From: Aminobacter aminovorans
Lineage (GTDB): Bacteria; Pseudomonadota; Alphaproteobacteria; Rhizobiales; Rhizobiaceae
Direction of reading: 5' to 3'
Assembly: GCF_900445235.1 (NCBI RefSeq)
Contig: NZ_UFSM01000001.1
Span: 124,001-188,000, forward strand
Length of the DNA: 64,000 nt
Both the position numbers and the translations under genes were made by a program. The notes beneath the pieces were generated by a model. It ran no database searches. It had not been told where the DNA came from and saw nothing but the letters and a program-made list of their open reading frames with translations. Below, in pieces: positions 7,882 through 22,726 of the stretch; within the stretch, counting starts at the first letter, position 1; every line of letters starts with the position of its first letter.

Positions 7882-8364
7882 CTATTTCAGCAACACGACA
7901 GCCTCGACCTCGAAGAGCATCGGGTCGACCGCGAGCCTGGGAACAGGGATCAGCGTCTGTGCCGGCAGCGTGTCGCCGAACATCTCCTTGACGCTCTCCG
8001 TGAGTACGCCGAGCTTGGACATGTCGTGGTCGACCACGAACACGGTGAGCTTGGCGACCTGATCGGGCTTTGCACCGAGGCTATCGAGGGCGCTGCGCAG
8101 GTTGGCATAGGCTTGCTTCACCTGGACCGCAAATTCGGGCGACAGGCCGCCGCTGGCGTCCTGGCCGCCCTGCCCTGATATATAAGCAAGCCTTGCCCCG
8201 GTGGGAACGATGACCGCCGTGCTGTAGCCGTTCGGCGTCGGGTCGTAGAGATTCTCAGGGTTGACGATGGTCAGCTTGAGATCATTCTCGCTGGCCATCG
8301 TGGTGGTGGGAACTGCCATGGTGATTAGGCCTCCGACAAGCAGATGCTTGATTGTGCGTGACAT
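7882..8364 (-). CDS. Exported RidA-family protein
   Basis: 160 aa from ATG 8362-8364. An N-terminal signal peptide (MSRTIKHLLVGGLITMAVPT, likely cleaved after MAS) precedes a complete YjgF/YER057c/UK114 domain with VPTGARLAYISGQGGQDASG, FAVQVKQAYANLRSALDSLG, VFVVDHD and the C-terminal PRLAVDPMLFEVEAVVLLK. The active-site Arg of true RidA imine deaminases is replaced in the segment LIPVPRLA, though an Arg lies nearby, so deaminase activity is uncertain. Periplasmic location is unusual for RidA. It is divergent from a TetR regulator across a region with a perfect operator-like palindrome, so it is the likely regulatory target. Confidence 0.85.
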   Translation of the reverse strand: MSRTIKHLLVGGLITMAVPTTTMASENDLKLTIVNPENLYDPTPNGYSTAVIVPTGARLAYISGQGGQDASGGLSPEFAVQVKQAYANLRSALDSLGAKPDQVAKLTVFVVDHDMSKLGVLTESVKEMFGDTLPAQTLIPVPRLAVDPMLFEVEAVVLLK

Positions 8365-8471
8365 GATTTTTCTCTTTGGCTCCGCGGCTGGCGAGCAACC
8401 TGCGCTCGCGGCGGCTTGATCGAACTTCAGTCCATCGTCGACACGACTCGTACGATGTGCGATCAATCATA

Positions 8472-8720: not shown

Positions 8721-9410
8721 ATGGCAGCCAAACCCGGCGGCAAAAAGCAGCCCAAACCCGGCAAACTACCCCGGCCATCGCGAGAGCCACGGAGCGAACC
8801 GCCGTTGTCTCTGGAGCGGATCGTGGCGACGGCGGTGGAACTGCTGGACACCCAGGGCATCGACGGCTTGACAATGCGCCGGCTGGCCGACCGCCTCGGC
8901 TCAGGCGTGATGAGCCTCTACTGGCATGTCGACAACAAGGAGGACGTCTTCGACCTTGCGCTCGACAAGGTGCTCGAGTCCCGCGCGCCGCCCGAGAAGG
9001 CCAAACCCCAGGGGTGGCGCGAAGAGGCCGTATATGTGCTCGAAGACTGGCGAGCCAGCATGCTGCGCCATCCCTGGTCGGCATCGCTGTTGCCGCGCCG
9101 GGCACTCGGCCCGAACATTCTCGGCCGCCTGGAACTGCTTGCCAATACCTTGTCCAAAGCCGGTGTAGCGGATGCAGATCTGAACGTCGCGATCTGGTCG
9201 CTGTGGAACCATGTGATGGGCTCCACCATCACCCGGGCTAGCTTCGACATGTCGGACGACGACAGGGCCGCAGCACAACAGCGCCTCACGAGCCTCAGCG
9301 AACGCTACCCGAAAATCGAACGTTCCCGCCTGCTGCTGGACAACGATTGGGACGGCACCTTCCGCAAGGGCCTCGACTATCTCCTCGATGGTCTTGCCCC
9401 AATACGATGA
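8721..9410 (+). CDS. TetR-family transcriptional regulator (TetR_C type)
   Basis: 229 aa. After a Pro/Lys-rich basic leader of 28 residues, the DNA-binding domain runs from LSLERIVATAVELLDTQGID to SGVMSLYWHVDNKEDVFDLA, with the helix-turn-helix LTMRRLADRLGSGVMSLYWH. The C-terminal half resembles the tetracycline-repressor ligand domain (WREEAVYVLEDWRASMLRHP, SLWNHVMGSTITRASFD). It probably represses the divergent exported RidA-like gene and itself by binding 8472-8486; ligand unknown. GAGGA lies before ATG 8721. Confidence 0.9.
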   Translation: MAAKPGGKKQPKPGKLPRPSREPRSEPPLSLERIVATAVELLDTQGIDGLTMRRLADRLGSGVMSLYWHVDNKEDVFDLALDKVLESRAPPEKAKPQGWREEAVYVLEDWRASMLRHPWSASLLPRRALGPNILGRLELLANTLSKAGVADADLNVAIWSLWNHVMGSTITRASFDMSDDDRAAAQQRLTSLSERYPKIERSRLLLDNDWDGTFRKGLDYLLDGLAPIR

Positions 9411-10679: not shown

Positions 10680-10705
10680 TTATCGATAAGCCGATCGATA
10701 AATCG
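10680..10705. promoter_or_regulatory. Operator candidate upstream of the polyamine-type ABC operon
   Basis: TTATCGATAAGCCG (10680-10693) contains the perfect palindrome TTATCGATAA. A second ATCGATAA starts 12 bases further on (10694). The sequence recurs as TTATTGATAAGCCG at 22713-22726 in front of the catabolic operon, again with a half-site TTATCG 12 bases away. It lies about 150 bases before the ATG at 10856. Likely target of the GntR-type fusion regulator at 14829-16532; inference. Confidence 0.55.
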
Positions 10706-10855: not shown

Positions 10856-11917
10856 ATGATCCGGAAAAATGTGAGGAACTCTCTTTCTGCCTGTGCGCTG
10901 CTTGCCGCGTGGGGCATTGCAGGCCAGGCCGCCCAGGCGGCTGAGGTGACGGTCGCCGTCGGCGGCGGCGTGATCCAGGAGGTCGGCCGCGAGACCTTGT
11001 GGGGACCGGCGGCCAAGACGCTCGGCAACAGCGTGCGCGAGGAAACCATCAACGACGCCTATGCCTCAGTGAAACTGCAGGCGGCGGCCAATGCGGTGAC
11101 CTTCGACCTCGTCCAGACCAACGCCTTCCAGGCTGAAAAGGGCGGCCGCGAGGGCCTGTTCATGCCGCTCGACTACGGCGTCATCGACTCCAAGGACTTC
11201 ATCGAAGGCACGGCGCAGAAATACTGCATCTCGGCGCTGATCTTCTCCTGGGTCATGGCCTGGAACACCGACGCCTACAAGGACAAGGCGCCGCAGAGCT
11301 GGGCCGACTTCTGGGACGTCGAGAAGTTCCCTGGTCGCCGCGCCATGCGCAACGACGCCGAGGCGCAACTCGAGATCGCGCTGCTCGCCGATGGCGTGCC
11401 GATGGACAAGGTCTACGAGGTGCTGGGATCGGAGGGCGGCATGCAGCGCGCGCTCGACAAGATCGAGCAGTTGCGTCCGCACATCGCGGTGTGGTGGAAT
11501 TCGGGTGCCCAGCATGCGCAGCTGATGAAGGACAAGGAAGTGGACATGTCGGTGGGCTGGAATGCCCGTTTCGAAGCCGCCAAGAAGGACGGTGCCAAGA
11601 TCGACTACACCTTCAACCAGGGCGTCATGAGCATGGATTGCTGGGCGGTGCCGGTCGGAGCCCCGCATGCCGCCGAAGCGATGAAGATGATCAACGAGAT
11701 GTCCAAGCCGGAAGCCCAGGCCAAGTTCTCGGTCGGGGTGAAATATGGTGCGGCCAACAAGCGCGCCTATGAGACCGGCCTCATCCCCGACGACGTCTCG
11801 AAGAAGCTTCCGACCTATCCCGACAATGCCGCGCACCAGCTTGCCCAGCGCAATGAATGGTGGGTCGAACATGTCGGCGAAGCCCAGCTCGGCTTCCAGG
11901 AAATGATGTCGCGCTGA
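10856..11917 (+). CDS. Polyamine-type ABC transporter substrate-binding protein (PotD/PotF-like)
   Basis: Periplasmic binding protein of 353 aa, starting at ATG 10856 with GGGGAA six bases upstream. Signal peptide ends AQAAE (cleavage after QAA). The mature protein has the family-1 type II fold features FDLVQTNAFQAEKGGREG, PQSWADFWDVEKFPGRR, the WWNSGAQHAQLMKDKEVDMS segment, and a C-terminal APHAAEAMKMINEMSKPEAQ region like PotD/PotF and opine-type binding proteins. First gene of a four-gene importer with the ATPase 30 bases downstream. The ligand is probably a cationic or amine-bearing compound but is not shown by the sequence. Confidence 0.9.
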   Translation: MIRKNVRNSLSACALLAAWGIAGQAAQAAEVTVAVGGGVIQEVGRETLWGPAAKTLGNSVREETINDAYASVKLQAAANAVTFDLVQTNAFQAEKGGREGLFMPLDYGVIDSKDFIEGTAQKYCISALIFSWVMAWNTDAYKDKAPQSWADFWDVEKFPGRRAMRNDAEAQLEIALLADGVPMDKVYEVLGSEGGMQRALDKIEQLRPHIAVWWNSGAQHAQLMKDKEVDMSVGWNARFEAAKKDGAKIDYTFNQGVMSMDCWAVPVGAPHAAEAMKMINEMSKPEAQAKFSVGVKYGAANKRAYETGLIPDDVSKKLPTYPDNAAHQLAQRNEWWVEHVGEAQLGFQEMMSR

Positions 11918-11947: not shown

Positions 11948-12997
11948 ATGACAAGTGCTGCGTTCATCGAAATCCGCAATCTTTGGAAAGCCTACGGATC
12001 CTTCCGTGCCCTCAACGACGTCGACCTCGATGTTGGGCGCGGCGAGTTCCTGAGCATTCTCGGCCCCTCGGGCTCCGGCAAGACCACGCTTCTGATGGCG
12101 CTTGCCGGGTTCGTCAGGCCCGATCGCGGACAGATCTCTGTCGATGGACGCGACCTTGTCCGCCTGCCCGCCAACAAGCGTGGCATCGGCGTGGTGTTCC
12201 AGAACTACGCCCTGTTTCCGCACATGAATGTTGCTGCCAACGTCATGTTTCCCCTGCGCGTCCGCGGTATCGGCCGCGCAGAGGCTTCCGAGCGTGCCAG
12301 AAAGGCGCTCGACATCGTCGATCTCGCCAGCATGGCCGAACGTGACATCGCCACCCTGTCGGGCGGGCAGAAGCAGCGCGTGGCGCTCGCCCGCGCCGTG
12401 GTGTTCGAGCCCCGGCTGATGCTGATGGACGAGCCGCTGTCGGCGCTCGACAAGAACCTGCGCGAGCAGATGCAGTACGAAATCCGCAAGCTGCACGACC
12501 GGCTTGGGCTGACCACCGTCTATGTCACGCACGACCAGCGCGAAGCGCTGACTATGTCGGACCGCATTGCCGTGATGCGCGACGGCGTCATCCGGCAACT
12601 CGGCACGCCGGCTTCGCTGTATCACCGGCCAACCTCACGCTTCGTCGCCGAGTTCCTGGGCGAGGCCAACATTCTCGAGCTCGACGCGGTGGACAGCTTC
12701 GTTGCCCCTGAGCCGGATGTCGGCGGACCGGGCCGCAAGCTGATGATCCGCGCCGAGAGGCTGTCGCTTTCCGATGCCAGCGGCCATGACAACGTGTCAC
12801 TGGATGGCGTGCTGACGCGCTCTGTGTTCCAGGGCGACAGCTGGCTCATCTCCGTCGCTCTGGCGAACGGCGGAGCCGTCTCGGCGCGCATCGCCGCAGC
12901 CGAGGCGGCGAATTTCAGTCTCGAGGCGCTGACCGAAGGTGCGGCGCTCAAGCTGCATGTGCGGCGCGATGCGGTGATCGCGGTGACCGACGCATGA
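11948..12997 (+). CDS. Polyamine-type ABC transporter ATP-binding protein (PotA-like)
   Basis: 349 aa. Complete nucleotide-binding domain: Walker A GPSGSGKTT, Q-loop VVFQNYALFPHM, signature LSGGQKQR, Walker B LMLMDEPLSALD, H-loop VTHDQ. The C-terminal 110 residues form a TOBE-type regulatory domain (FLGEANILELDAVDSF, KLMIRAERLSLSD). It overlaps the next permease gene by four bases, so the operon is translationally coupled. Confidence 0.95.
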   Translation: MTSAAFIEIRNLWKAYGSFRALNDVDLDVGRGEFLSILGPSGSGKTTLLMALAGFVRPDRGQISVDGRDLVRLPANKRGIGVVFQNYALFPHMNVAANVMFPLRVRGIGRAEASERARKALDIVDLASMAERDIATLSGGQKQRVALARAVVFEPRLMLMDEPLSALDKNLREQMQYEIRKLHDRLGLTTVYVTHDQREALTMSDRIAVMRDGVIRQLGTPASLYHRPTSRFVAEFLGEANILELDAVDSFVAPEPDVGGPGRKLMIRAERLSLSDASGHDNVSLDGVLTRSVFQGDSWLISVALANGGAVSARIAAAEAANFSLEALTEGAALKLHVRRDAVIAVTDA

Positions 12998-13914
12998 GCG
13001 CGCCTGCCATGACCTTGCCGGCGGCAGCCGGTGCCACAGACAACTCGGCCCTGCTGCGGCGCGACGGCATGCTGGCACAGCTTGGCTTTTTTGGGCTCGC
13101 GCTGCCGGCGGTGCTGCTGGTGACCATTGCCATCGTCGTGCCGCTCGCCGCCATGTTGTGGATATCGATCGCCCGGCCTGACGGAACTGTGTCGCTCGAC
13201 ACCTATCTCAAGATCATGAGCACGCCGGTCTATACGCGCTCGGTGCTGACGACGTTCCAGGTCAGCGGCATGACGGTGCTGACCTGCGCGCTGTTGGGCA
13301 CACCATTTGCGCTGGTCATGGCCAGTGTCGGCCGGCGGCTCGCTTCGATCCTGCTGCTGGTTGTCATGCTCCCGTTCTGGACGGCCCTTCTGGTCCGCAC
13401 CTACGCGCTCTCGGTGCTGTTGCAGCGCAACGGACTGGTCAACAGGTTCCTGACTGACACCGGGCTGGTTTCCGAACCCTTGCCGCTGATCAACAATTTC
13501 TTCGGCACCATCGTCGGCATGACCCATGTGATGCTGCCGCTGTTCATCCTGCCTGTCTATGCGGCGATCAAGCAGATCGACCAGAACATTATCCGCGCCG
13601 CCGCCAGCCTCGGCGCCAGCAAGCTCCTGACCCTGCGGGCGGTGATCCTGCCGCTGGCCGCCAACGGCATCTTCGCCGGCGCCGTGCTGGTGTTCGTGCT
13701 CAGTCTCGGCTTCTACGTCACCCCGGCTATCCTCGGCGGCGGCCGCGTGCCGATGATCTCGACCCGCATCGAGCAGAACGTCTCGGTGCTTTCCGACTGG
13801 CCGGCGGCAAGTGCGCTCGGCGTGCTGTTGCTGCTGTCGGTCGGGCTGGTGTTCCTGGTCACCTTCCTGCTCCGCCGCAGCATCAAGGCCCTCGGAGGAG
13901 CTGCCAATGTTTGA
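12994..13914 (+). CDS. Polyamine-type ABC transporter permease 1 (PotB-like)
   Basis: 306-aa integral membrane protein with six predicted helices and the EAA-type cytoplasmic loop ASLGASKLLTLRAVILPLAA that docks onto the ATPase. A polar N-terminal stretch of about 35 residues precedes the first helix. Start overlaps the preceding stop (ATGA); its end overlaps the second permease by eight bases. Confidence 0.93.
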   Translation: MSAPAMTLPAAAGATDNSALLRRDGMLAQLGFFGLALPAVLLVTIAIVVPLAAMLWISIARPDGTVSLDTYLKIMSTPVYTRSVLTTFQVSGMTVLTCALLGTPFALVMASVGRRLASILLLVVMLPFWTALLVRTYALSVLLQRNGLVNRFLTDTGLVSEPLPLINNFFGTIVGMTHVMLPLFILPVYAAIKQIDQNIIRAAASLGASKLLTLRAVILPLAANGIFAGAVLVFVLSLGFYVTPAILGGGRVPMISTRIEQNVSVLSDWPAASALGVLLLLSVGLVFLVTFLLRRSIKALGGAANV

Positions 13915-14707
13915 CGGGTTCGATGTCTCATGGCCGTTGCGCCTGGCGGTCGGCCTGTTCACCGCGCTGGTGGCGACCTTCCTGTTGGCACCTTCACTGA
14001 TCGTGGTGCCGATGTCGTTCTCGGCCTCCGAACTGCTGCAGTTCCCGCCGACCGAATTTTCGCTGCGCTGGTGGCAGCAGTACTGGCAGTCCGACCTGTG
14101 GATGCCGGCGACCAAGATCAGCCTGCTTCTGGCCACCGTCACCGCCGCGGTTGCCGTGCCGATCGCCTTTGCCGCGGCTTACGCCACCACGCGTTCGCTC
14201 GGCTGGGCCAGGCTGCCGCTCTATGGGGTACTCCTGATGCCGGCCACCGTGCCGCCGATCCTCGTCGCCATCGGCCTGTTTTTCGTTCTGGCACGCATGC
14301 ATCTCGTCGGCTCGTTCCCGGGCCTTTGGCTGGGCCATACGGTCATCGCCATCCCGACCGCCTATGTCATCCTTTCCGCCGGTTTCGCCCGCTTCGACTT
14401 CGCCCAGGAAAAGGCGGCCCGCAGTCTCGGCGCCGGCTGGTGGCGGACGATGGTCTCCGTCGTCATCCCGCAGATGCGTTTTTCGTTGCTGTCAGCCGCC
14501 CTGCTTTCCTTCCTGACGTCGCTCGACGAAGTGATCGTGTCGATGTTCGTCGGCGGTGGCGCCAACACGACACTGACCAAGGTGATGTTCCTCGGCCTGC
14601 GCGACCGCGTCGATCCTCAGGCCGCAGTGATCTCGACGATCTGGATCGTGCTTGTCGCCATCGTGGTCACGGTGGTGTTCGGGCGCCAGCGGCAGGAGCC
14701 GTCGTGA
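13907..14707 (+). CDS. Polyamine-type ABC transporter permease 2 (PotC-like)
   Basis: 266 aa from ATG 13907, chosen for the strong GGAGGAG seven bases upstream and because the protein then begins directly with its first membrane helix. Six helices, EAA loop AARSLGAGWWRTMVSVVIPQ, and the family segment SLDEVIVSMFVGGGANTTLT. Completes the importer. 121 bases of non-coding sequence follow before the NagZ-GntR fusion gene. Confidence 0.93.
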   Translation: MFDGFDVSWPLRLAVGLFTALVATFLLAPSLIVVPMSFSASELLQFPPTEFSLRWWQQYWQSDLWMPATKISLLLATVTAAVAVPIAFAAAYATTRSLGWARLPLYGVLLMPATVPPILVAIGLFFVLARMHLVGSFPGLWLGHTVIAIPTAYVILSAGFARFDFAQEKAARSLGAGWWRTMVSVVIPQMRFSLLSAALLSFLTSLDEVIVSMFVGGGANTTLTKVMFLGLRDRVDPQAAVISTIWIVLVAIVVTVVFGRQRQEPS

Positions 14708-14828: not shown

Positions 14829-16532
14829 ATGCCGCTGACAATTGACCGAACCCAACCGAAGGCCGTGGTGTTCGGCTGCGCGGGCACCAGCCTGAACGCT
14901 GCCGAACGCAGCTTCTTCCGCGCCGCCCAGCCCTGGGGCTTCATCCTGCACAAGCGCAATTGCGCCGACCCGGCGCAATTGCGCACGCTGGTGGCGGAAC
15001 TGCGCGAAAGCGTCGGCCGCAGCGACGTGCGCGTGCTGATCGACCAGGAGGGCGGCCGCGTCGCCCGGCTGGCGCCACCGCACTGGCGCGCGCCCCCGCC
15101 GGCCTCGCTGTTCGCTCAGATCGCCCGCACCGACGTCAAGCGGGCACTCGATGCCGTGCGCCTCAACGCACGCCTCGTCGCAGCCGAACTGTTCGATCTC
15201 GGCATCGACATCAACATCGCGCCTGTGCTCGACCTGCCGATCGGTAAGGGCGACCTGGTGATCGGCGACCGGGCGCTGGGAGACACGCCGGAGATGGCAA
15301 GCATTCTCGGCCGCGCCACCTGCGAGGGGCTGCTGGCCGGCGGCGTGCTGCCCGTCATCAAGCATATCCTCGGCCATGGCCGTGCCCGGCAGGACAAGTC
15401 CGAGGCGCTGCTGGTGGTCAACGCCTCGCTCGACGAGATGCAGTCGGCCGACTTCGTGCCGTTCCGCTCGTTGCAGGACATGCCCTGCGCCATGGCGGCA
15501 CACGTCATCTACCGCGCCATCGACCGCGACGCGCCGGCTACCGCATCGCGCACCGTCATCGATGAGATCATCCGTGGCATGATCCGCTTCGACGGCGTGC
15601 TGATGAGCGACGATGTCTCGGATATCAGCCGCACCCATCCGATCGATGCCCAGGTCAGCGCGACGCAAGAAGCCGGCTGCGACGTCATCCTGCACGGCAG
15701 CGGCGACATGGACGAGATGCAGCGCGTCGCCGATGCTGCCATGCCGTTGTCAGAGAATGCGGTCGAGCGTCTGCACCGCGCCGAGCGCATGCGTCGCCGG
15801 CCTTCGGCGATCGACCTGGCCGAAACCGCCCGAAAACTGGAGGAACTGCTCAAGCCGCTTGGGGCGCGAGCCCGCCAGTCCGGCACGACGCGCTCGTCCG
15901 AAATCGTCGGCAATGTCGCCAAGAAGATCGAACGCGACATCGTTCTGGGCCGCATCCTGCCCAAGGAGCGGATCATGGAGGACGAGCTGGTCTACGGGCT
16001 CGGCGTCAAGCGCCACGTCGCGCGCGCCGTGCTGCAGGAACTGGCACGCACCGGGCTGGTCAAGCTCGAACCCTATCGGGGTGCGGTGGTGCGCCACCTG
16101 TCGCCGGACGACCTTGTCAAGCTGCACGACGTGCGCCAGCTCTTGATCGCCGCCGCCGTGCAGCGCATTCGCCTGCCGGTGTCGCCGGTGCTGATGAACA
16201 AGCTCGAACATGCAAGGCAGATCCATCGCTCGGCCATTTCGGTCGGCGATCTCGAACTGGCTTATGTCCAGGACCGCGCATTCCACGACCTGTTGCTCGA
16301 AGCGACGGGTAACGAGTTCATTGCCCGCTCGATCAATGATTGCGATGCCGGCATGCGCAGCATAGATGCCGCGAGCCTGATGGCCGACAACCTCGTCGAG
16401 CCGGCGCTCGTCGAACATGACGAGATGGTGAAGGCACTGGAGGACCAGGACCTCCAACGCCTTGGAAAATTGTGCGCGGCGCATTTCGACCGACCGTTCG
16501 CCCATCACATGGCGAACGGCGTCCGGCACTGA
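14829..16532 (+). CDS. NagZ-like (GH3) domain fused to a GntR/FCD transcriptional regulator
   Basis: 567-aa two-part protein in one unbroken frame. Residues 1-330 are a family 3 beta-N-acetylhexosaminidase (NagZ) TIM barrel: VLIDQEGGRVARL (68-81), LFDLGIDINIAPVLD (121-135), VIGDRALG, VIKHILGHGRARQDKS (177-191) and VLMSDDVSDIS (258-268). The nucleophile Asp of MSDD is kept, but the catalytic Asp-Ser-His of NagZ reads Asp-Lys-Ser (189-191) and PGHG reads LGHG, so hydrolysis is probably lost. Residues 355-425 are a GntR winged helix (VAKKIERDIVLGRILPKERI, LGVKRHVARAVLQELARTGL) and 430-560 an FCD ligand domain. ATG 14829 has GAGAG eight bases upstream. It follows the importer genes on the same strand and converges on the amidase gene with three bases between stops. 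Inferred role: regulator of this locus whose barrel senses an amino-sugar-like ligand. Confidence 0.88.
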   Translation: MPLTIDRTQPKAVVFGCAGTSLNAAERSFFRAAQPWGFILHKRNCADPAQLRTLVAELRESVGRSDVRVLIDQEGGRVARLAPPHWRAPPPASLFAQIARTDVKRALDAVRLNARLVAAELFDLGIDINIAPVLDLPIGKGDLVIGDRALGDTPEMASILGRATCEGLLAGGVLPVIKHILGHGRARQDKSEALLVVNASLDEMQSADFVPFRSLQDMPCAMAAHVIYRAIDRDAPATASRTVIDEIIRGMIRFDGVLMSDDVSDISRTHPIDAQVSATQEAGCDVILHGSGDMDEMQRVADAAMPLSENAVERLHRAERMRRRPSAIDLAETARKLEELLKPLGARARQSGTTRSSEIVGNVAKKIERDIVLGRILPKERIMEDELVYGLGVKRHVARAVLQELARTGLVKLEPYRGAVVRHLSPDDLVKLHDVRQLLIAAAVQRIRLPVSPVLMNKLEHARQIHRSAISVGDLELAYVQDRAFHDLLLEATGNEFIARSINDCDAGMRSIDAASLMADNLVEPALVEHDEMVKALEDQDLQRLGKLCAAHFDRPFAHHMANGVRH

Positions 16533-16535
16533 CTG

Positions 16536-18005
16536 TCAGAACCTGCCGCTAGCTCCATTGGCGGCATGGAAGGGCGCGCGCCGGTCGTACCAGGGGCGTG
16601 CCCGTTCAAGCGATGCCGCGAGTTCGATCAGCGTGGCCTCGCCGGCCGGCGGAGCGACAAGCTGGACACCAAGCGGCAGGCCCGAGCGGTCCATGCCGAG
16701 CGGCAGCGACAAGGCCGGCTGTCCCGAGACGTTGAACGGCATCATGTAGACCGTGTCCTCGCCCATCGCCGCGGCGTCATAGGCGTCGATGTCCTTGGAC
16801 ATGTCGTAATAGCCGAGCGGGCGTGTACCCTGCGGCAAGACCGGCAGCAGCACGACGTCGTAGCGCGAGGTCAGCGTGGCAATGTGGCGGGAATGCCGGC
16901 GCATCGCCTCGATGTCGCGGCTGTGCTGGATGGCGCTGGTCGCCCGACCGCGTTCGATCGTCGTCCAGATCGTCGTTGACATGTCGGACGGCTTGTTGGA
17001 AACGCCCCGCGCCCGGGCATGATCGTCGAACTGAGCCGCGGTCTGGACCCGGATCATCCCCGTATAGGCCCGCCACAAGCCTTCGAAATCATAGTCGAAA
17101 TCGAAAGGCTCGACCTCGTGCCCGAGCGCGCCGCAGAGCCGCGCCGCATCGCAGACCGCCTCGTCGACGACTGCGCTGTTGGCATCGCCGCGTGGGTTGT
17201 TGAGGCTGAAGCCGATGCGCAGACGCCGGTTGACCGGAGCTGTGTTGTCGAGGAACGAGGGGCGCTCCCTGATGTAATAGGGCTCACCCGGATAGCCGCC
17301 CTGCAACGCGTCGAGCATGGCCGCGCTGTCGCGCACGGTCTTCGATACGCATGAGGACTGTCCGCCGCCGAACCAGAAGTCGGCCGCCTCGGGTCCCGGC
17401 GAAATCCGGCCGCGCGACGGCTTGAGACCGACGAGCCCGTTGATTGCTGCCGGCACGCGGGTGGAACCCGCGCCGTCGCCGGCGTCGGCCAGTGGAAGAT
17501 ATCCCGCCGCGACCGCCACTGCCGCCCCGCCGCTCGAACCGCCTGGCGTCCTGTCGAAGGCCCAGGGGTTTCGCGCCGGGCCATGCATCGGCGACTCTGT
17601 GGTCAGCGACCAGCCCCATTCCGGCGCGTTGGTCTTGCCGAGCAGGATGAATCCGGCGTTCTTGGTCCGCTGGGTGATCAGCGAATCCGACTGGGAAACA
17701 GTGCCGGCGAAGGACGAGATGCTGTTTGTCGAGGGAATGCCGGCCCATGAGGTATGCAGGTCCTTGGCCAGATAGGGCACGCCGGCAAAGGGTCCGGCGG
17801 GCGGCGCGGTCTCGGCAAGGGCGAGCGCCTGCTCGAAACAGCGGATGACGACGGCATTCAGCACCCCGTCGAGCGCTTCGATGCGGGCGATCGACGTTTC
17901 AACGAGTTCGCGGGAGCTGACCTCGCGGCGGCGCACCAGATCGGCAAGGCCGAGCGCGTCGTAGTCGTCGAACTCCTTGAACGGCCCGATAGGCGAGCGC
18001 GACAT
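16536..18005 (-). CDS. Amidase (amidase-signature family)
   Basis: 489-aa hydrolase of amide bonds. The Ser-cisSer-Lys triad is visible: Lys in PYLAKDLHTS (about residue 80), cis-Ser in TPGGSSGGAAVAVAAG (about 155), nucleophile Ser in DGAGSTRVPAAINGLVGLKP (about 181). The C-terminal half holds MPFNVSGQPALSLPLGMDRS as in AtzF/GatA-type amidases. GGAGA seven bases before ATG 18005. Last gene of the leftward operon, 12 bases after the isomerase-like gene. A role in releasing an acyl or carbamoyl group from the imported compound is inference. Confidence 0.93.
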   Translation of the reverse strand: MSRSPIGPFKEFDDYDALGLADLVRRREVSSRELVETSIARIEALDGVLNAVVIRCFEQALALAETAPPAGPFAGVPYLAKDLHTSWAGIPSTNSISSFAGTVSQSDSLITQRTKNAGFILLGKTNAPEWGWSLTTESPMHGPARNPWAFDRTPGGSSGGAAVAVAAGYLPLADAGDGAGSTRVPAAINGLVGLKPSRGRISPGPEAADFWFGGGQSSCVSKTVRDSAAMLDALQGGYPGEPYYIRERPSFLDNTAPVNRRLRIGFSLNNPRGDANSAVVDEAVCDAARLCGALGHEVEPFDFDYDFEGLWRAYTGMIRVQTAAQFDDHARARGVSNKPSDMSTTIWTTIERGRATSAIQHSRDIEAMRRHSRHIATLTSRYDVVLLPVLPQGTRPLGYYDMSKDIDAYDAAAMGEDTVYMMPFNVSGQPALSLPLGMDRSGLPLGVQLVAPPAGEATLIELAASLERARPWYDRRAPFHAANGASGRF

Positions 18006-18017
18006 GGGCGTCTCCGT

Positions 18018-18845
18018 TCAGATGCCGAGCCCGCGCAGGAAGGCGCGGCTGTCGCGGATGACATCATCAGCCGGGATCTCCCAACCGAACAGGTGCGATT
18101 CATATTCGACCGAGGCGGAACCAGCGTAGCCAAGGCGCCTCAAGGTGTCGGTGACGGCCTTCAGGTCGACCTCGCCGGTGCCGAGCGGCACGCATTTGAA
18201 GTCGGGGTAGAGTCCGACCGAATCCTTGACGTGGAAGTTGCTGATGCGGTCGAACAGCAGTTCCGCCGCCCTGACCGGATCCTCGCCGCGGAGCTGGAAA
18301 TGGGTCGGATCGAAAGCGACGCGGACATCGGAGCCGGGGATCGCCCGGAACAGGTCGAGATATTCGTCGGCCTTGGCGACGATGTGCATCGAGCAGCCCT
18401 CGATGCCGAACTTGACGCCTCGATCCCTGGCGTGGTCGCAAACCTCTTCCAGTGCCGCCGCCAGGTACTTTCGCGCCGTAGCTATGTCGATGCCGCCGAA
18501 GGCGCGACCGGTGAAGACCCAGACGACTGGAGCGCCGATGTCGCGCGCCAGGTCCACCGATGCCTTGAGATAGTCGATGCCGGCGCGGCGTTCCTCAGCG
18601 GTCTCCTTGGCGAGATGCAGGCAGGCGCTCAATGCCGAGATGCTCATGCCGGCATCCGATATGGCTCGGGCGACATCCGCTCGGCCGGCGGCATCGAGCG
18701 ACGGCGTCACATGCGGCACGAAGCCGTTGCTCCACAGGTCGCCATTGAGCTCGACCGAGCTGTAGCCGGCCTGCGACAGCTTGCCCGCCAACTCAGTGAC
18801 GGGCAGCTGGTGCAGGAAGGTGCTGTAGAAGCCGGCGCTGATCAT
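18018..18845 (-). CDS. Sugar phosphate isomerase/epimerase-like TIM barrel protein
   Basis: 275 aa of the AP-endonuclease-2/xylose-isomerase-like TIM barrel superfamily. Metal-site segments typical of this family are present: KFGIEGCSMHIV (Glu), VRVAFDPTHFQLRGEDP (Asp, His), ISNFHVKDS (His, Asp) and SASVEYESHLFGWE (Glu). ATG 18843-18845 overlaps the stop of the upstream dehydrogenase gene (ATGA). It likely isomerises or dehydrates a keto-sugar produced by the neighbouring dehydrogenase; substrate unknown. Confidence 0.88.
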   Translation of the reverse strand: MISAGFYSTFLHQLPVTELAGKLSQAGYSSVELNGDLWSNGFVPHVTPSLDAAGRADVARAISDAGMSISALSACLHLAKETAEERRAGIDYLKASVDLARDIGAPVVWVFTGRAFGGIDIATARKYLAAALEEVCDHARDRGVKFGIEGCSMHIVAKADEYLDLFRAIPGSDVRVAFDPTHFQLRGEDPVRAAELLFDRISNFHVKDSVGLYPDFKCVPLGTGEVDLKAVTDTLRRLGYAGSASVEYESHLFGWEIPADDVIRDSRAFLRGLGI

Positions 18846-20017
18846 GACCGGCCCGCCTTGGCATCGGAGCCGTGGCCCTCGAAATCGGGAAATGCGAAGG
18901 GCGCGTTGTCGGCCAAAGGCAGCGACACCCAGGCGCGGGCAATCTGCGAGCTGTAGGCGGCATGGACCAGCTCGGTGGCGCGGGCGCCGTCGAAGCCTGT
19001 GGCGCCGATACCGTCGCGGGTGCCGGAGAGGATTTCCTCGGCCATGCCGGCGAGCTGCTCGGCATAGGTGTCCCATTCGTTGCGCGGCGGCCAGATCGAC
19101 AGCCAGCCATCCCAGGCATGGCGGTTCTGCTTGGAGCGCGCGGTCGGATAGACGGCCTTGCGGATCGGCTCCGGCAGCTCGTTCATCGGCACGGTGGTGT
19201 TGATGGCGAGCGGCACGTCGAAGAAGGGCGAGCCGGCATTGGTCCAGAACGACAGCGAGCCCTTGGTGCCGTAGAGTTCGGTGGCGTCGCCGAGCACCGG
19301 CGAATAGCGGTCGGCAATGAAGGAACCGCGCGCGCCCTTGTTGGTACGCACCATCAGATGGACGTTGTCGTCGACGACGGGCGGGATGACGCAATGGCTG
19401 ACATCGGCCACGACCTCGGCATAGTCGTCGTCGAGCAGGTAACGCAGCATGTCGAAGCGGTGGATCAGGTTGTCGTTGGTGGTGGCGCCGCCCGACCGTT
19501 CGAGATCCCAGCGGAAGTTGCTGCCGTCGACCCAGTTGTCCCATTTCGCCGAGAACACCGTGCGGAAGGAAAACACCTCGCCGATCAGGCCGGCCTCGAT
19601 GGCGAGCTTGGCCATGCGGATCTGGTTGAGGTAGCGCTGGTTGAAACCGGTCTTGAGCACGATCTTGTGCTCTTCGGCGATCCTGGCCATGGCGATCGCG
19701 TCGGGATAGGTGACGGCCAGCGGCTTCTCGCACAGCACATGCTTGCCGGCACGGGCGCAGGCCTCGAAGTCGCGGCGATGCAGGTTGTTGGGCGTCGCCA
19801 TGATGACGATGTCGACGGACGGGTCGGCGAGCATCTTGTCCAGGCTGGTGTAGATGTTGGCGCCGCCATAGGCGTCGGCCAGCGTCCGGGCGCGCGCCTC
19901 ATCGATGTCGCACACCGCGGCGAGCCTGGTCGAGGCACCAGCCGCCACGGCCGGCGCATGGCCGTCGTGGACAATATTTCCGGCCCCGTAGAGCCCCACT
20001 CCCAATTGACGTGACAT
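18842..20017 (-). CDS. Gfo/Idh/MocA-family oxidoreductase
   Basis: 391-aa NAD(P)-dependent sugar or inositol-type dehydrogenase. N-terminal Rossmann motif GVGLYGAGNIVHDGH, the family signature HVLCEKPLAVTYPDA (Lys of EKP at about residue 98), TGFNQRYLNQ, and a C-terminal beta-sheet domain from VFSFRTVFSAKWDNW, with the conserved catalytic-type segment TNDNLIHRFDMLRYL (Asp and His). GGAAGAAC before ATG 20017. Second-last coupled pair of the operon; it probably oxidises a ring hydroxyl of the imported sugar-like compound. Confidence 0.92.
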   Translation of the reverse strand: MSRQLGVGLYGAGNIVHDGHAPAVAAGASTRLAAVCDIDEARARTLADAYGGANIYTSLDKMLADPSVDIVIMATPNNLHRRDFEACARAGKHVLCEKPLAVTYPDAIAMARIAEEHKIVLKTGFNQRYLNQIRMAKLAIEAGLIGEVFSFRTVFSAKWDNWVDGSNFRWDLERSGGATTNDNLIHRFDMLRYLLDDDYAEVVADVSHCVIPPVVDDNVHLMVRTNKGARGSFIADRYSPVLGDATELYGTKGSLSFWTNAGSPFFDVPLAINTTVPMNELPEPIRKAVYPTARSKQNRHAWDGWLSIWPPRNEWDTYAEQLAGMAEEILSGTRDGIGATGFDGARATELVHAAYSSQIARAWVSLPLADNAPFAFPDFEGHGSDAKAGRS

Positions 20018-20124: not shown

Positions 20125-20475
20125 TCAACGCGCCGCGATGACGGCGATTTCGACCAGGTTCTTCGGCCGCGCCAGCGGCGAGCCAACTGTTGCCCTCACC
20201 GGCGTATTGCCCTTGGCGACCCAGGCATCCCAGACGGCATTCATCTCCTCGAAGTTGGCGACGTCGGTGAGCCAGATGTTGGCCGACAGGATCTTCGACT
20301 TGTCGGTGCCGGCCTCAGTGAGATAGGTGTCGATCTTGTCGAGGATCTGCCGGGTCTGCTCGGCGACCGACGGCACCGGGTCGGTGGCCGTCTGGCCGGC
20401 GAGATAGACAGTGTCGCCGTGGATGACGATCTGCGACATGCGCTCGCCCTGGCGCAGCCGTTCAATCTTGCTCAT
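20125..20475 (-). CDS. RidA-family protein
   Basis: 116-aa cytoplasmic YjgF/UK114-family protein: VYLAGQTATDPVPS, QTRQILDKIDTYLTEAGTDK, IWLTDVANFEEMNAVWDAW and GNTPVRATVGSPLARPKNLV; the Arg of PVRATV matches the substrate-carboxylate Arg of RidA. Its start overlaps the aldolase stop by four bases. In amino-compound catabolism such proteins hydrolyse reactive enamine or imine intermediates, which suggests a nitrogenous substrate for this operon. Confidence 0.92.
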   Translation of the reverse strand: MSKIERLRQGERMSQIVIHGDTVYLAGQTATDPVPSVAEQTRQILDKIDTYLTEAGTDKSKILSANIWLTDVANFEEMNAVWDAWVAKGNTPVRATVGSPLARPKNLVEIAVIAAR

Positions 20476-21164
20476 GTGTTGCTCTCTTTCATTATGTGCC
20501 GGAAGTCGTTGGCTCCGGTGATCAGGAAGTTGTTGGCGTGCTCGTAGAGGAAGCGGCAGCCGCCGCGGACGAAGGCGGCGACCGTGTCGCGCGTCACCAG
20601 CGTGCCCGGCACCTTGCCTGCGGCGCGAATCCTTGCGGCGCAGTCGAGGACGAGCCGCTTGACGTCGGGATGATGGGTCTGGCCGTTCAGGCCCATCGAG
20701 TGCGACAGGTCGTTGGGGCCCATGAAGAACACGTCGACGCCTTCGACAGCGACGATGGCGTCGAGGTTGTCGACCGCTTCAAGGGACTCGATCATCGCCA
20801 CCACCACGGTATCGCCATGGTTCTGCGGTCGGGCCCGGCGCACGGCCGCAACGATGCTGCGGGCGCTGTCGGCATCATCGACATGCGGCACGATCAGGCC
20901 GCCGGCGCCGGCATCGAGGTAACGCGTGAGCAGATGGTCGAGATTGGCTTCCGGCCGGACGATGGACTGCAGGCCGGCGGCACGCGCCGCGCGGCACATG
21001 TCCTGCACGGTCTGGATCGAGGCCGTGCCATGCTCGCAATCGATGAACACGCCGTCGACGCCGAGGCGGCCGAGAAACTCGGTCAGCGCCGGCGACGGAT
21101 GGTCGGGATTGACGACGACGACGGGTTCGTCCCGCTGCAGACGCTGTTTGAACAGATTTACCAT
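20472..21164 (-). CDS. HpcH/HpaI-family aldolase
   Basis: 230-aa class II pyruvate-type aldolase of the HpcH/HpaI (citrate-lyase beta superfamily) fold. FIDCEHGTASIQTV, IVRPEANLDHLLTRYLDAGA, GLIVPHVDDADSARSIV, VVAMIESLEAVDNLDAI and FFMGPNDLSHSMGL carry the usual Arg, Glu and Asp metal ligands and Pro-Asn-Asp-Leu signature. Start at ATG 21162-21164; the family is normally about 250 aa. It would cleave a 2-keto-3-deoxy acid to pyruvate plus an aldehyde as the final carbon step. Confidence 0.92.
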   Translation of the reverse strand: MVNLFKQRLQRDEPVVVVNPDHPSPALTEFLGRLGVDGVFIDCEHGTASIQTVQDMCRAARAAGLQSIVRPEANLDHLLTRYLDAGAGGLIVPHVDDADSARSIVAAVRRARPQNHGDTVVVAMIESLEAVDNLDAIVAVEGVDVFFMGPNDLSHSMGLNGQTHHPDVKRLVLDCAARIRAAGKVPGTLVTRDTVAAFVRGGCRFLYEHANNFLITGANDFRHIMKESNT

Positions 21165-21174
21165 GATGCGCCCC

Positions 21175-22170
21175 TCAGCCGATGGCGATGGAAAAGACAT
21201 GGCCGATGCCACGGGGAAGCGGATGCGCACGCCAGCTGTCGCCGGCATCGTCGCTCAGGAAAACGTGGCCGAACTTGTCCGAGCAGACGAGCCGCTTCGG
21301 GTCGGTCGGGTCGACAGCCATGGCAAAGACTGTGCTCTTCAGGGGCGCGCCGAGATCAAGGCGCTGGAAGCTCGCGCCGCCATCTGTAGAACGGAAGAAG
21401 TCGCCGAGGTCACCGTCGAAGTCGTTGCCGGCGCCGAGGTAGATCGTGTCAGCCGGGCCCTGGCCGAGGACGCGGCAATAGGAGCCCTTTTCGCGTAGCG
21501 CCGGCACCGGCAGCTTGTGCCAGCGGCAACCATTGTCACGGCTCTGGAAAGCGCCGACACGTGTCGTCACCGACACATTGCCCTCCGCATCAACAAGCAC
21601 CGAGTGCAGGTCGACGGCATCCTCGACGACATAGAGCCCGTCGAGCGCCTGGCGCCAGCTGCGGCCGCCGTCGTCCGACATGATCAGGCCGCCGATCTCG
21701 ATGCTGGCGTAGATCCTGTCGGCATTGGTGGGGTCGACTGCAATGCGGGTGATGCGCCTTGGCATGCCGGCCGTGATGTCGGGGTAGCCGACCGAGACGT
21801 CGAGGTTGCGCCAGCTGCGGCCATTGTCGGTCGACTTGAAGATCGCCGTCGGCTCGTAGCCGGCGAACAGCGTATCCGGCTCATGCGGATGACGGGTCAG
21901 CGACCACACCACGAACTCCGGCTTCGGCGCGTCGAGCCGGGACCAGCTGTCGCCATGGTCGGCGCTGTGGAAAATGCCGTCCTGCGTGGCGGCGAAAACT
22001 TCGCCCGGACGCCCGGGATCGGCGAGCAGTGCGAATGTCTGCGGTACTGCGGGAAAGCCTTTCTCGATCCGCTCCCAGACGCCGCCATCGCGGCTGCGCA
22101 GCAGGCCTGAACTCATGAAGCGGCCGGGATCGGTGTCGCCGGCGAGCCCGGCATAAAGGGTGATGGTCAT
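21175..22170 (-). CDS. Asp-box (BNR repeat) beta-propeller, sialidase/Ycf48-like
   Basis: 331 aa, no signal peptide. Seven Asp-box motifs of the type S-x-D-x-G-x-x-W occur at regular spacing (SRDGGVWE, SADHGDSW, STDNGRSW, SDDGGRSW, SRDNGCRW, STDGGASF, SDDAGDSW), predicting a seven-bladed propeller. Start ATG 22168-22170 follows the cupin stop by 29 bases; the ribosome site is weak. No sialidase arginine triad is evident, so catalytic activity is open: it may be a lyase, lactonase or binding protein. Its place in the operon suggests action on the imported sugar derivative. Confidence 0.85.
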   Translation of the reverse strand: MTITLYAGLAGDTDPGRFMSSGLLRSRDGGVWERIEKGFPAVPQTFALLADPGRPGEVFAATQDGIFHSADHGDSWSRLDAPKPEFVVWSLTRHPHEPDTLFAGYEPTAIFKSTDNGRSWRNLDVSVGYPDITAGMPRRITRIAVDPTNADRIYASIEIGGLIMSDDGGRSWRQALDGLYVVEDAVDLHSVLVDAEGNVSVTTRVGAFQSRDNGCRWHKLPVPALREKGSYCRVLGQGPADTIYLGAGNDFDGDLGDFFRSTDGGASFQRLDLGAPLKSTVFAMAVDPTDPKRLVCSDKFGHVFLSDDAGDSWRAHPLPRGIGHVFSIAIG

Positions 22171-22199: not shown

Positions 22200-22595
22200 T
22201 CAGTAGCTTTCCGGGTCGGTCGAATAGTCGACGACGGGCGCGTCCTTGACACCGAAGGCCATGGCGAGCGCACGGATGCCGTTGTGCTCGTGCGCCGGCT
22301 TGATCGAGTGCCGCGCATTGGGCGGAATCTTGACCAGGTCTCCGGGGCCGATCTCGCGGGTCTCGTCCTCGATGGTCATCAGCGCCCGGCCGGAGAGCAT
22401 GAAATAGAACTCGTAGGTGGGGTGGTGGTGGGTGTTGACCTCTCCGCCGGCGCGGATCTCGAACTCGCTGATCAGTTCGAGATGGCCGCCCAGCGTCTCG
22501 TCCCGCATCTCGCGCGGCGGCACCAGCCACCACACCGGCGTGGTGCCCTGGTGCTCGAGTGTCGGTCGCGTGAAATCGCTCGAGCGGATGTCCAT
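22200..22595 (-). CDS. Cupin-domain protein
   Basis: 131-aa single cupin barrel. Metal-site motif 1 is EVNTHHHPTYEFYFMLSGRA (His-His-His and Glu) and motif 2 is GDLVKIPPNARHSIKPAHEH. Probably a metal-dependent isomerase or dioxygenase-like protein, or a sensor. First gene of the leftward catabolic operon, preceded at 22701-22726 by the operator sequence shared with the importer operon. Confidence 0.88.
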   Translation of the reverse strand: MDIRSSDFTRPTLEHQGTTPVWWLVPPREMRDETLGGHLELISEFEIRAGGEVNTHHHPTYEFYFMLSGRALMTIEDETREIGPGDLVKIPPNARHSIKPAHEHNGIRALAMAFGVKDAPVVDYSTDPESY

Positions 22596-22700: not shown

Positions 22701-22726
22701 TTATCGCCAACTTTATTGATAAGCCG
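22701..22726. promoter_or_regulatory. Operator candidate upstream of the cupin-led catabolic operon
   Basis: TTATTGATAAGCCG at 22713-22726 matches TTATCGATAAGCCG at 10680-10693 in 13 of 14 positions, and a half-site TTATCG lies 12 bases before it, the same 12-base period as at the other site. It is 106-131 bases upstream of the cupin ATG. Confidence 0.55.

Follow-up and report, generated by a model that had tools for sequence, protein, structure and literature searches.

NagZ, the beta-N-acetylglucosaminidase of glycoside hydrolase family 3 (GH3), uses an Asp-His dyad as acid/base, which is located in the loop following the KHxPGHG motif, as stated in the available parts of two papers (PMC5104943, PMC6572805). 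In the FadR subfamily of GntR regulators the winged helix is followed by an FCD domain. According to the accessible part of PMC4494728, the common operator of this subfamily consists of TKGT/ACMA boxes, which are not universal (BioR and NanR are exceptions), and extra half-sites occur 7–12 nt from the centre. BioR, a FadR-subfamily regulator with a biotin regulon, recognizes TTATMKATAA sites, which are sometimes tandem (available parts of PMC4494728 and PMC4554459). That a GntR protein can use an enzyme fold as effector domain is known from MocR/GabR, which, in the sources as far as available, carry the winged helix first and then an aminotransferase fold with PLP. A GH3 barrel joined to GntR and FCD was not described in the accessible portions of the open-access literature, outside which subscription journals mostly lie.

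Such a protein is encoded in the 64-kb stretch of DNA analysed here (the window) by an uninterrupted frame with the following features:

14829..16532, plus strand: fusion regulator of 567 aa, NagZ-type GH3 barrel + GntR + FCD (frame, Pfam, structure model)
14850..15854, plus strand: GH3/NagZ-type barrel, residues 8–342, acid/base His lost (Pfam, alignment, fold search)
15360..15413, plus strand: altered catalytic loop, residues 178–195 (KHILGHG...DKS), with the D189-K190-S191 codons at 15393–15401
15897..16103, plus strand: GntR winged helix, residues ~357–425 (Pfam, model, alignment)
16122..16490, plus strand: FCD domain, residues 432–554, with D482, H486, H530 and H552 (Pfam, alignment)

All three Pfam domains scored above the curated cut-offs (Glyco_hydro_3 at residues 37–310, E 5.7e-39; GntR at 362–421, E 2.9e-9; FCD at 432–554, E 2.4e-14), and these hits, together with the open frame, bore out the original prediction that a single frame joins a complete barrel to a GntR and an FCD domain. 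The barrel is complete as claimed, but its end had been placed too early, at residue 330: the best aligned range of the fold search was 8–342, so the linker comprises only residues ~343–356. Among the matches listed, fold searches of the fusion gave GH3-type chains only, since the barrel accounts for that listing. Residues 75–84 of the model, located in the conserved GGR loop, had a pLDDT below 50. The protein shares the order of winged helix and FCD domain with the FadR subfamily and differs from it by the 342-residue barrel in front. His486, His530 and His552 are kept in all nine fusions described below and Asp482 in eight of them; we take these three His and one Asp to be the FCD metal-site residues. 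All nine fusions carry the HTH stretch KRHVARA unchanged. The fusion is MocR-like in principle and not a member of MocR, as the effector fold is a GH3 barrel that comes first, an FCD domain is present, and the Pfam hits, listed to E 0.1, include no domain of aminotransferase type.

A database search for the domain pair, proposed along with the original prediction, revealed eight fusions beyond the window protein, P0001. In this search 7695 of the 8000 scored candidates were above the cut-off, and the best 120 of the 7695 contained the eight fusions, each with the three Pfam domains of P0001 (P0002–P0009, 51–97% identity), and 112 stand-alone barrels (50–59% identity), the latter named beta-N-acetylhexosaminidase in the source where a name was given. 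The GntR-FCD part, used as query in two further protein searches, retrieved 4 and 8 proteins, each a known fusion; these searches were word-based, by which distant fusions may be missed. Genome searches found the fused frame in Aminobacter ciceronei and A. anthyllidis, too, as well as in a Mesorhizobium MAG. Since the same frame occurs in eight database protein clusters and these three further genomes, and is open in the window, an origin by frameshift or artefact was ruled out; the fusion of a NagZ-type barrel with GntR-FCD is real. The fusions fall into two clades, P0001–P0005 and P0006–P0009. In a quick tree of the nine fusions, 80 of the 112 listed stand-alone barrels and the genome's own NagZ, the fusions together occupied one side of a branch with an SH-aLRT of 100, and the root was unsure because of the very long branch of the own NagZ. 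A single fusion event fits this tree, which does not prove it.

The fusion regulator is rare, and its host is a soil bacterium. Fusions were found in three of the 10 genomes of the genus, while the window's own genome was the only carrier among 297 sampled genomes of the family and among 397 of the order. In the class sample, nine of 385 genomes exceeded the threshold, namely the own genome and eight in which the match was confined to the barrel. When contigs of GTDB species were scanned with two peptide patterns taken from GntR, fusion loci were detected in A. ciceronei, A. anthyllidis and the MAG Mesorhizobium sp. 65-26, along with one 33% GntR match lacking the cluster genes. Among plasmid records, none covered 80% of the fusion, and the dehydrogenase of the neighbouring cluster had no match at E 1e-60. 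A separate intact NagZ is encoded elsewhere in the genome (C1:325027–325713), which makes it unlikely that the fusion replaces the housekeeping enzyme. With the fusion barrel this NagZ shares only 35% identity, as against 50–59% for the listed stand-alone barrels, so that the resident nagZ is probably not the source of the barrel.

The catalytic region was compared in 121 sequences, that is, the nine fusions (window protein included) and the 112 stand-alone barrels listed as closest. Where NagZ has its catalytic His, five fusions have Ser and four Asn, whereas all 112 stand-alone barrels have His. The residue before it is Lys or Arg in every fusion and Ser or Thr in every stand-alone barrel, so the loop triplets read DKS, DRS, ERS or DRN versus D[S/T]H, with Asp189 kept in eight of the nine fusions. 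The proline of KHxPGHG is replaced by Leu or Val in all nine (Pro in 112/112), and position 195 is Leu in all nine (Pro in 111/112). On the other hand, D72, E74, R80, R148, K178, H179, H225, D261 and D262 are identical in all 121 sequences. The residues named in the original prediction (D72 of DQEGGR, K178-H179, KHILGHG, D189-K190-S191 and D261) were all found as claimed, and its central observation, an altered Asp-Ser-His loop with the substrate side retained, now extends to all nine fusions. Of 99 columns conserved at 95% or more in the stand-alone barrels, 81 are unchanged in every fusion, 10 are changed in each of them and eight in some; residues 181–204 hold four of the 10 all-changed columns and 11 of the 99 conserved ones (Fisher p 0.013, for a span picked after the data had been seen). 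The barrel scored 198 bits, below the NCBIfam cut-off of 207 for beta-N-acetylhexosaminidase. Compared with NagZ, the fusion shares the GH3 barrel, the nucleophile Asp and the sugar-side residues, but the acid/base His and the original loop are missing and GntR-FCD is attached; judged by the alignment, the barrel lacks the Asp-His dyad that defines catalytic NagZ.

The loss of the acid/base His combined with the retention of the sugar-side residues suggests that the barrel senses a ligand and no longer works as an enzyme. One could also imagine a trigger enzyme, in which the barrel would still act, slowly or in altered form, as a glycosidase or phosphorylase. Glu192 or some other residue would then provide the acid/base, and turnover of the ligand would reset the switch. 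Glu192, which lies beside the lost His, is present in all nine fusions and in only 12 of the 112 listed stand-alone barrels, the nucleophile D261 is invariant and Asp189 is mostly retained, so residual catalysis is possible. However, the 12 stand-alone barrels with Glu192 also retain the catalytic His, hence Glu is not its replacement there, and the KHxPGHG proline, S/T190, His191 and Pro195 are all changed in every fusion; a trigger enzyme therefore appears unlikely. All nine fusions also carry a His at position 41 (14949–14951 of the window), where the 112 listed stand-alone barrels have Phe. Either of the two, Glu192 or His41, could have a role in residual catalysis or for a new ligand.

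Selection was estimated by the Nei-Gojobori method, with the barrel taken as residues 8–330. The barrel gave a dN/dS of 0.0111/0.313 = 0.036 between the window and A. anthyllidis and 0.0119/0.422 = 0.028 between A. ciceronei and A. anthyllidis, and there was no nonsynonymous change between the window and A. ciceronei at a dS of 0.143. The corresponding values of the FCD domain were 0.0604/0.573 = 0.105 (window and A. anthyllidis) and 0.0570/0.425 = 0.134 (A. ciceronei and A. anthyllidis). Purifying selection on the barrel is strong (dN/dS ~0.03) and tighter than on the FCD domain, which rules out a decaying pseudoenzyme. Between the window and A. anthyllidis, six other cluster genes showed dN/dS values of 0.016–0.156, a range that includes the barrel; the dS of potA was a mere 0.038. 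Pseudoenzymes can act as scaffolds, and the barrel could likewise be a structural or protein-binding module without a small-molecule ligand, leaving the FCD domain, whose His residues are kept, as the sole sensor. This is rather improbable, as the sugar-side residues, needless for a scaffold, are invariant in the nine fusions and the FCD domain changes faster than the barrel, which between the clades (window and Mesorhizobium MAG) is 60.6% identical, as opposed to 42.7% for the GntR-FCD part.

The fusion gene is the last gene of a plus-strand operon, which encodes a solute-binding protein (SBP), an ATPase and two permeases and converges with a minus-strand operon running from the cupin to the amidase; the stop codons of the fusion and amidase genes are 3 nt apart. 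The other genes of the two operons are:

10856..11917, plus strand: SBP, nearest solved structures of opine/polyamine type (MotA, agropine permease) (profile and structure search)
11948..12997, plus strand: ABC transporter ATPase, PotA-like (profile scan)
12994..13914, plus strand: ABC permease, PotB-like (profile scan)
13907..14707, plus strand: ABC permease, PotC-like (profile scan)
16536..18005, minus strand: amidase, nearest solved structure 6-aminohexanoate-cyclic-dimer hydrolase (profile and structure search)
18018..18845, minus strand: xylose-isomerase-like TIM barrel (epimerase/isomerase)
18842..20017, minus strand: Gfo/Idh/MocA dehydrogenase
20125..20475, minus strand: RidA-family protein
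20472..21164, minus strand: HpcH/HpaI aldolase
21175..22170, minus strand: BNR/Vps10-type propeller
22200..22595, minus strand: cupin

In the Mesorhizobium MAG, the 20-kb locus of the 53%-identical fusion contains a match for each of the 11 other cluster genes (38–75% identity; that of the amidase is partial, at the locus end). Their order is rearranged, with the SBP and cupin operons diverging from one intergenic region. The SBP is closest to an uncharacterised SBP (4i1d) and to MotA, which we take to be a binder of opine-type compounds, and agropine, GABA, polyamine and mannopine proteins follow further off. The pathway would appear to import and break down a sugar derivative that contains an amine or amide linkage, and this context points to an opine-like or amide-linked derivative of a sugar, taken up from outside, as ligand of the fusion. 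The amino sugar or anhydromuropeptide proposed originally finds no support: the conserved neighbours form an importer of opine/polyamine type and a pathway for a sugar derivative. Peptidoglycan recycling did not figure in the names given to the cluster proteins that were scanned (9 + 10). The idea of an enzyme turned sensor otherwise stood, given the His lost in all nine fusions, the retained substrate side, the purifying selection and the attached GntR-FCD. A TetR gene just outside the cluster (8721–9410, plus strand) was rejected as the cluster regulator, having no match in the 20-kb Mesorhizobium locus.

Motif search revealed an operator-like element at the outer end of each operon:

10680..10701, minus strand: TTATCG-N6-TTATCGATAA, ~155 nt upstream of the SBP gene
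22701..22722, plus strand: TTATCG-N6-TTATTGATAA, ~105 nt upstream of the cupin gene

With one mismatch allowed, TTATCGATAA has two sites in the 64-kb window, one before each operon, while shuffled windows had a mean of 0.30 and reached two sites in five of 100 shuffles. Each decamer is paired with a TTATCG box 12 nt away, and both genome occurrences of TTATYGATAAGCYG are at the element sites before the two operons. Exact TTATCGN6TTATYGATAA was present in two copies in each of the three fusion-bearing genomes of the genus and absent from the other seven; when two mismatches were allowed, some match was found in seven of the 10. This association is not independent of the cluster, because three of the seven that carry no exact copy were included in the propeller search and lack the propeller too. 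The divergent promoter of the Mesorhizobium MAG contains three 12-nt units, of which the middle one has two mismatches and the first agrees in its first half only. Promoter scans detected no sigma-70-like promoter in either operator region. The element deviates from the common GT/AC consensus of the FadR subfamily and resembles that of BioR, for which reason BioR was considered as the owner of the sites. If they belonged to this or another GntR regulator, the fusion would not control the cluster. TTATCGATAA does fit TTATMKATAA, and tandem BioR sites are on record (accessible parts of PMC4494728 and PMC4554459, respectively). Nevertheless, TTATTGATAA at the cupin lies outside this consensus, the elements flank a cluster whose scanned genes are not biotin genes and recur with the 53%-identical fusion, and of the two exact genome sites of TTATAGATAA, one falls within an mnmG-like frame and the other right at the start of a yebC-like one (both frames identified by eye, by their ORF starts). 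Control by BioR or its like is thus very improbable.

Considering these results, we favour, with a probability of roughly two in three, a local transcription factor that uses its non-catalytic barrel as a sensor of a sugar-type ligand and controls both operons. A FadR/FCD-type GntR transcription factor would have acquired a whole NagZ barrel by fusion, and the barrel, its Asp-His acid/base function gone and its sugar-side residues retained, would have become a sensor. The protein would act as a dimer whose GntR domains bind the tandem TTATYGATAA-type sites located at the outer end of each converging operon, one for the importer and the regulator, the other from the cupin to the amidase. The imported sugar-like substrate or its intermediate would occupy the barrel, and this binding would relieve the repression of both operons; the fusion probably senses a sugar-like nutrient in this way and controls the neighbouring import and breakdown genes. 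A metal-bound carboxylate in the FCD domain may join as a second ligand. Such a two-input regulator is plausible, and its fuller form, in which two pockets (the non-catalytic GH3 barrel and the metal-FCD) integrate two metabolites of one pathway and govern the uptake and breakdown of an opine-like or amide-linked sugar derivative, has in our estimate a chance a little short of even. MocR provides a precedent for recruiting an enzyme as GntR effector domain, and a glycosidase barrel would be a further case. Here the catalytic loop is visibly dismantled while the sugar side is kept, and because many structures of the enzyme form are solved, the before/after comparison is unusually clear. One regulator, two candidate operators and one catabolic cluster also make a compact test system.

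A second RidA-family protein is encoded just outside the cluster (7882–8367, minus strand), without a match in the Mesorhizobium locus. The propeller is encoded within the catabolic operon, and its relatives occur at 29–41% identity in 21 other genomes of the 385 in the class sample. The stretches of four of these 21 contained no fusion-free cluster; one of the four (L047) had weak ATPase and amidase matches in addition to the propeller, the amidase match adjoining it.
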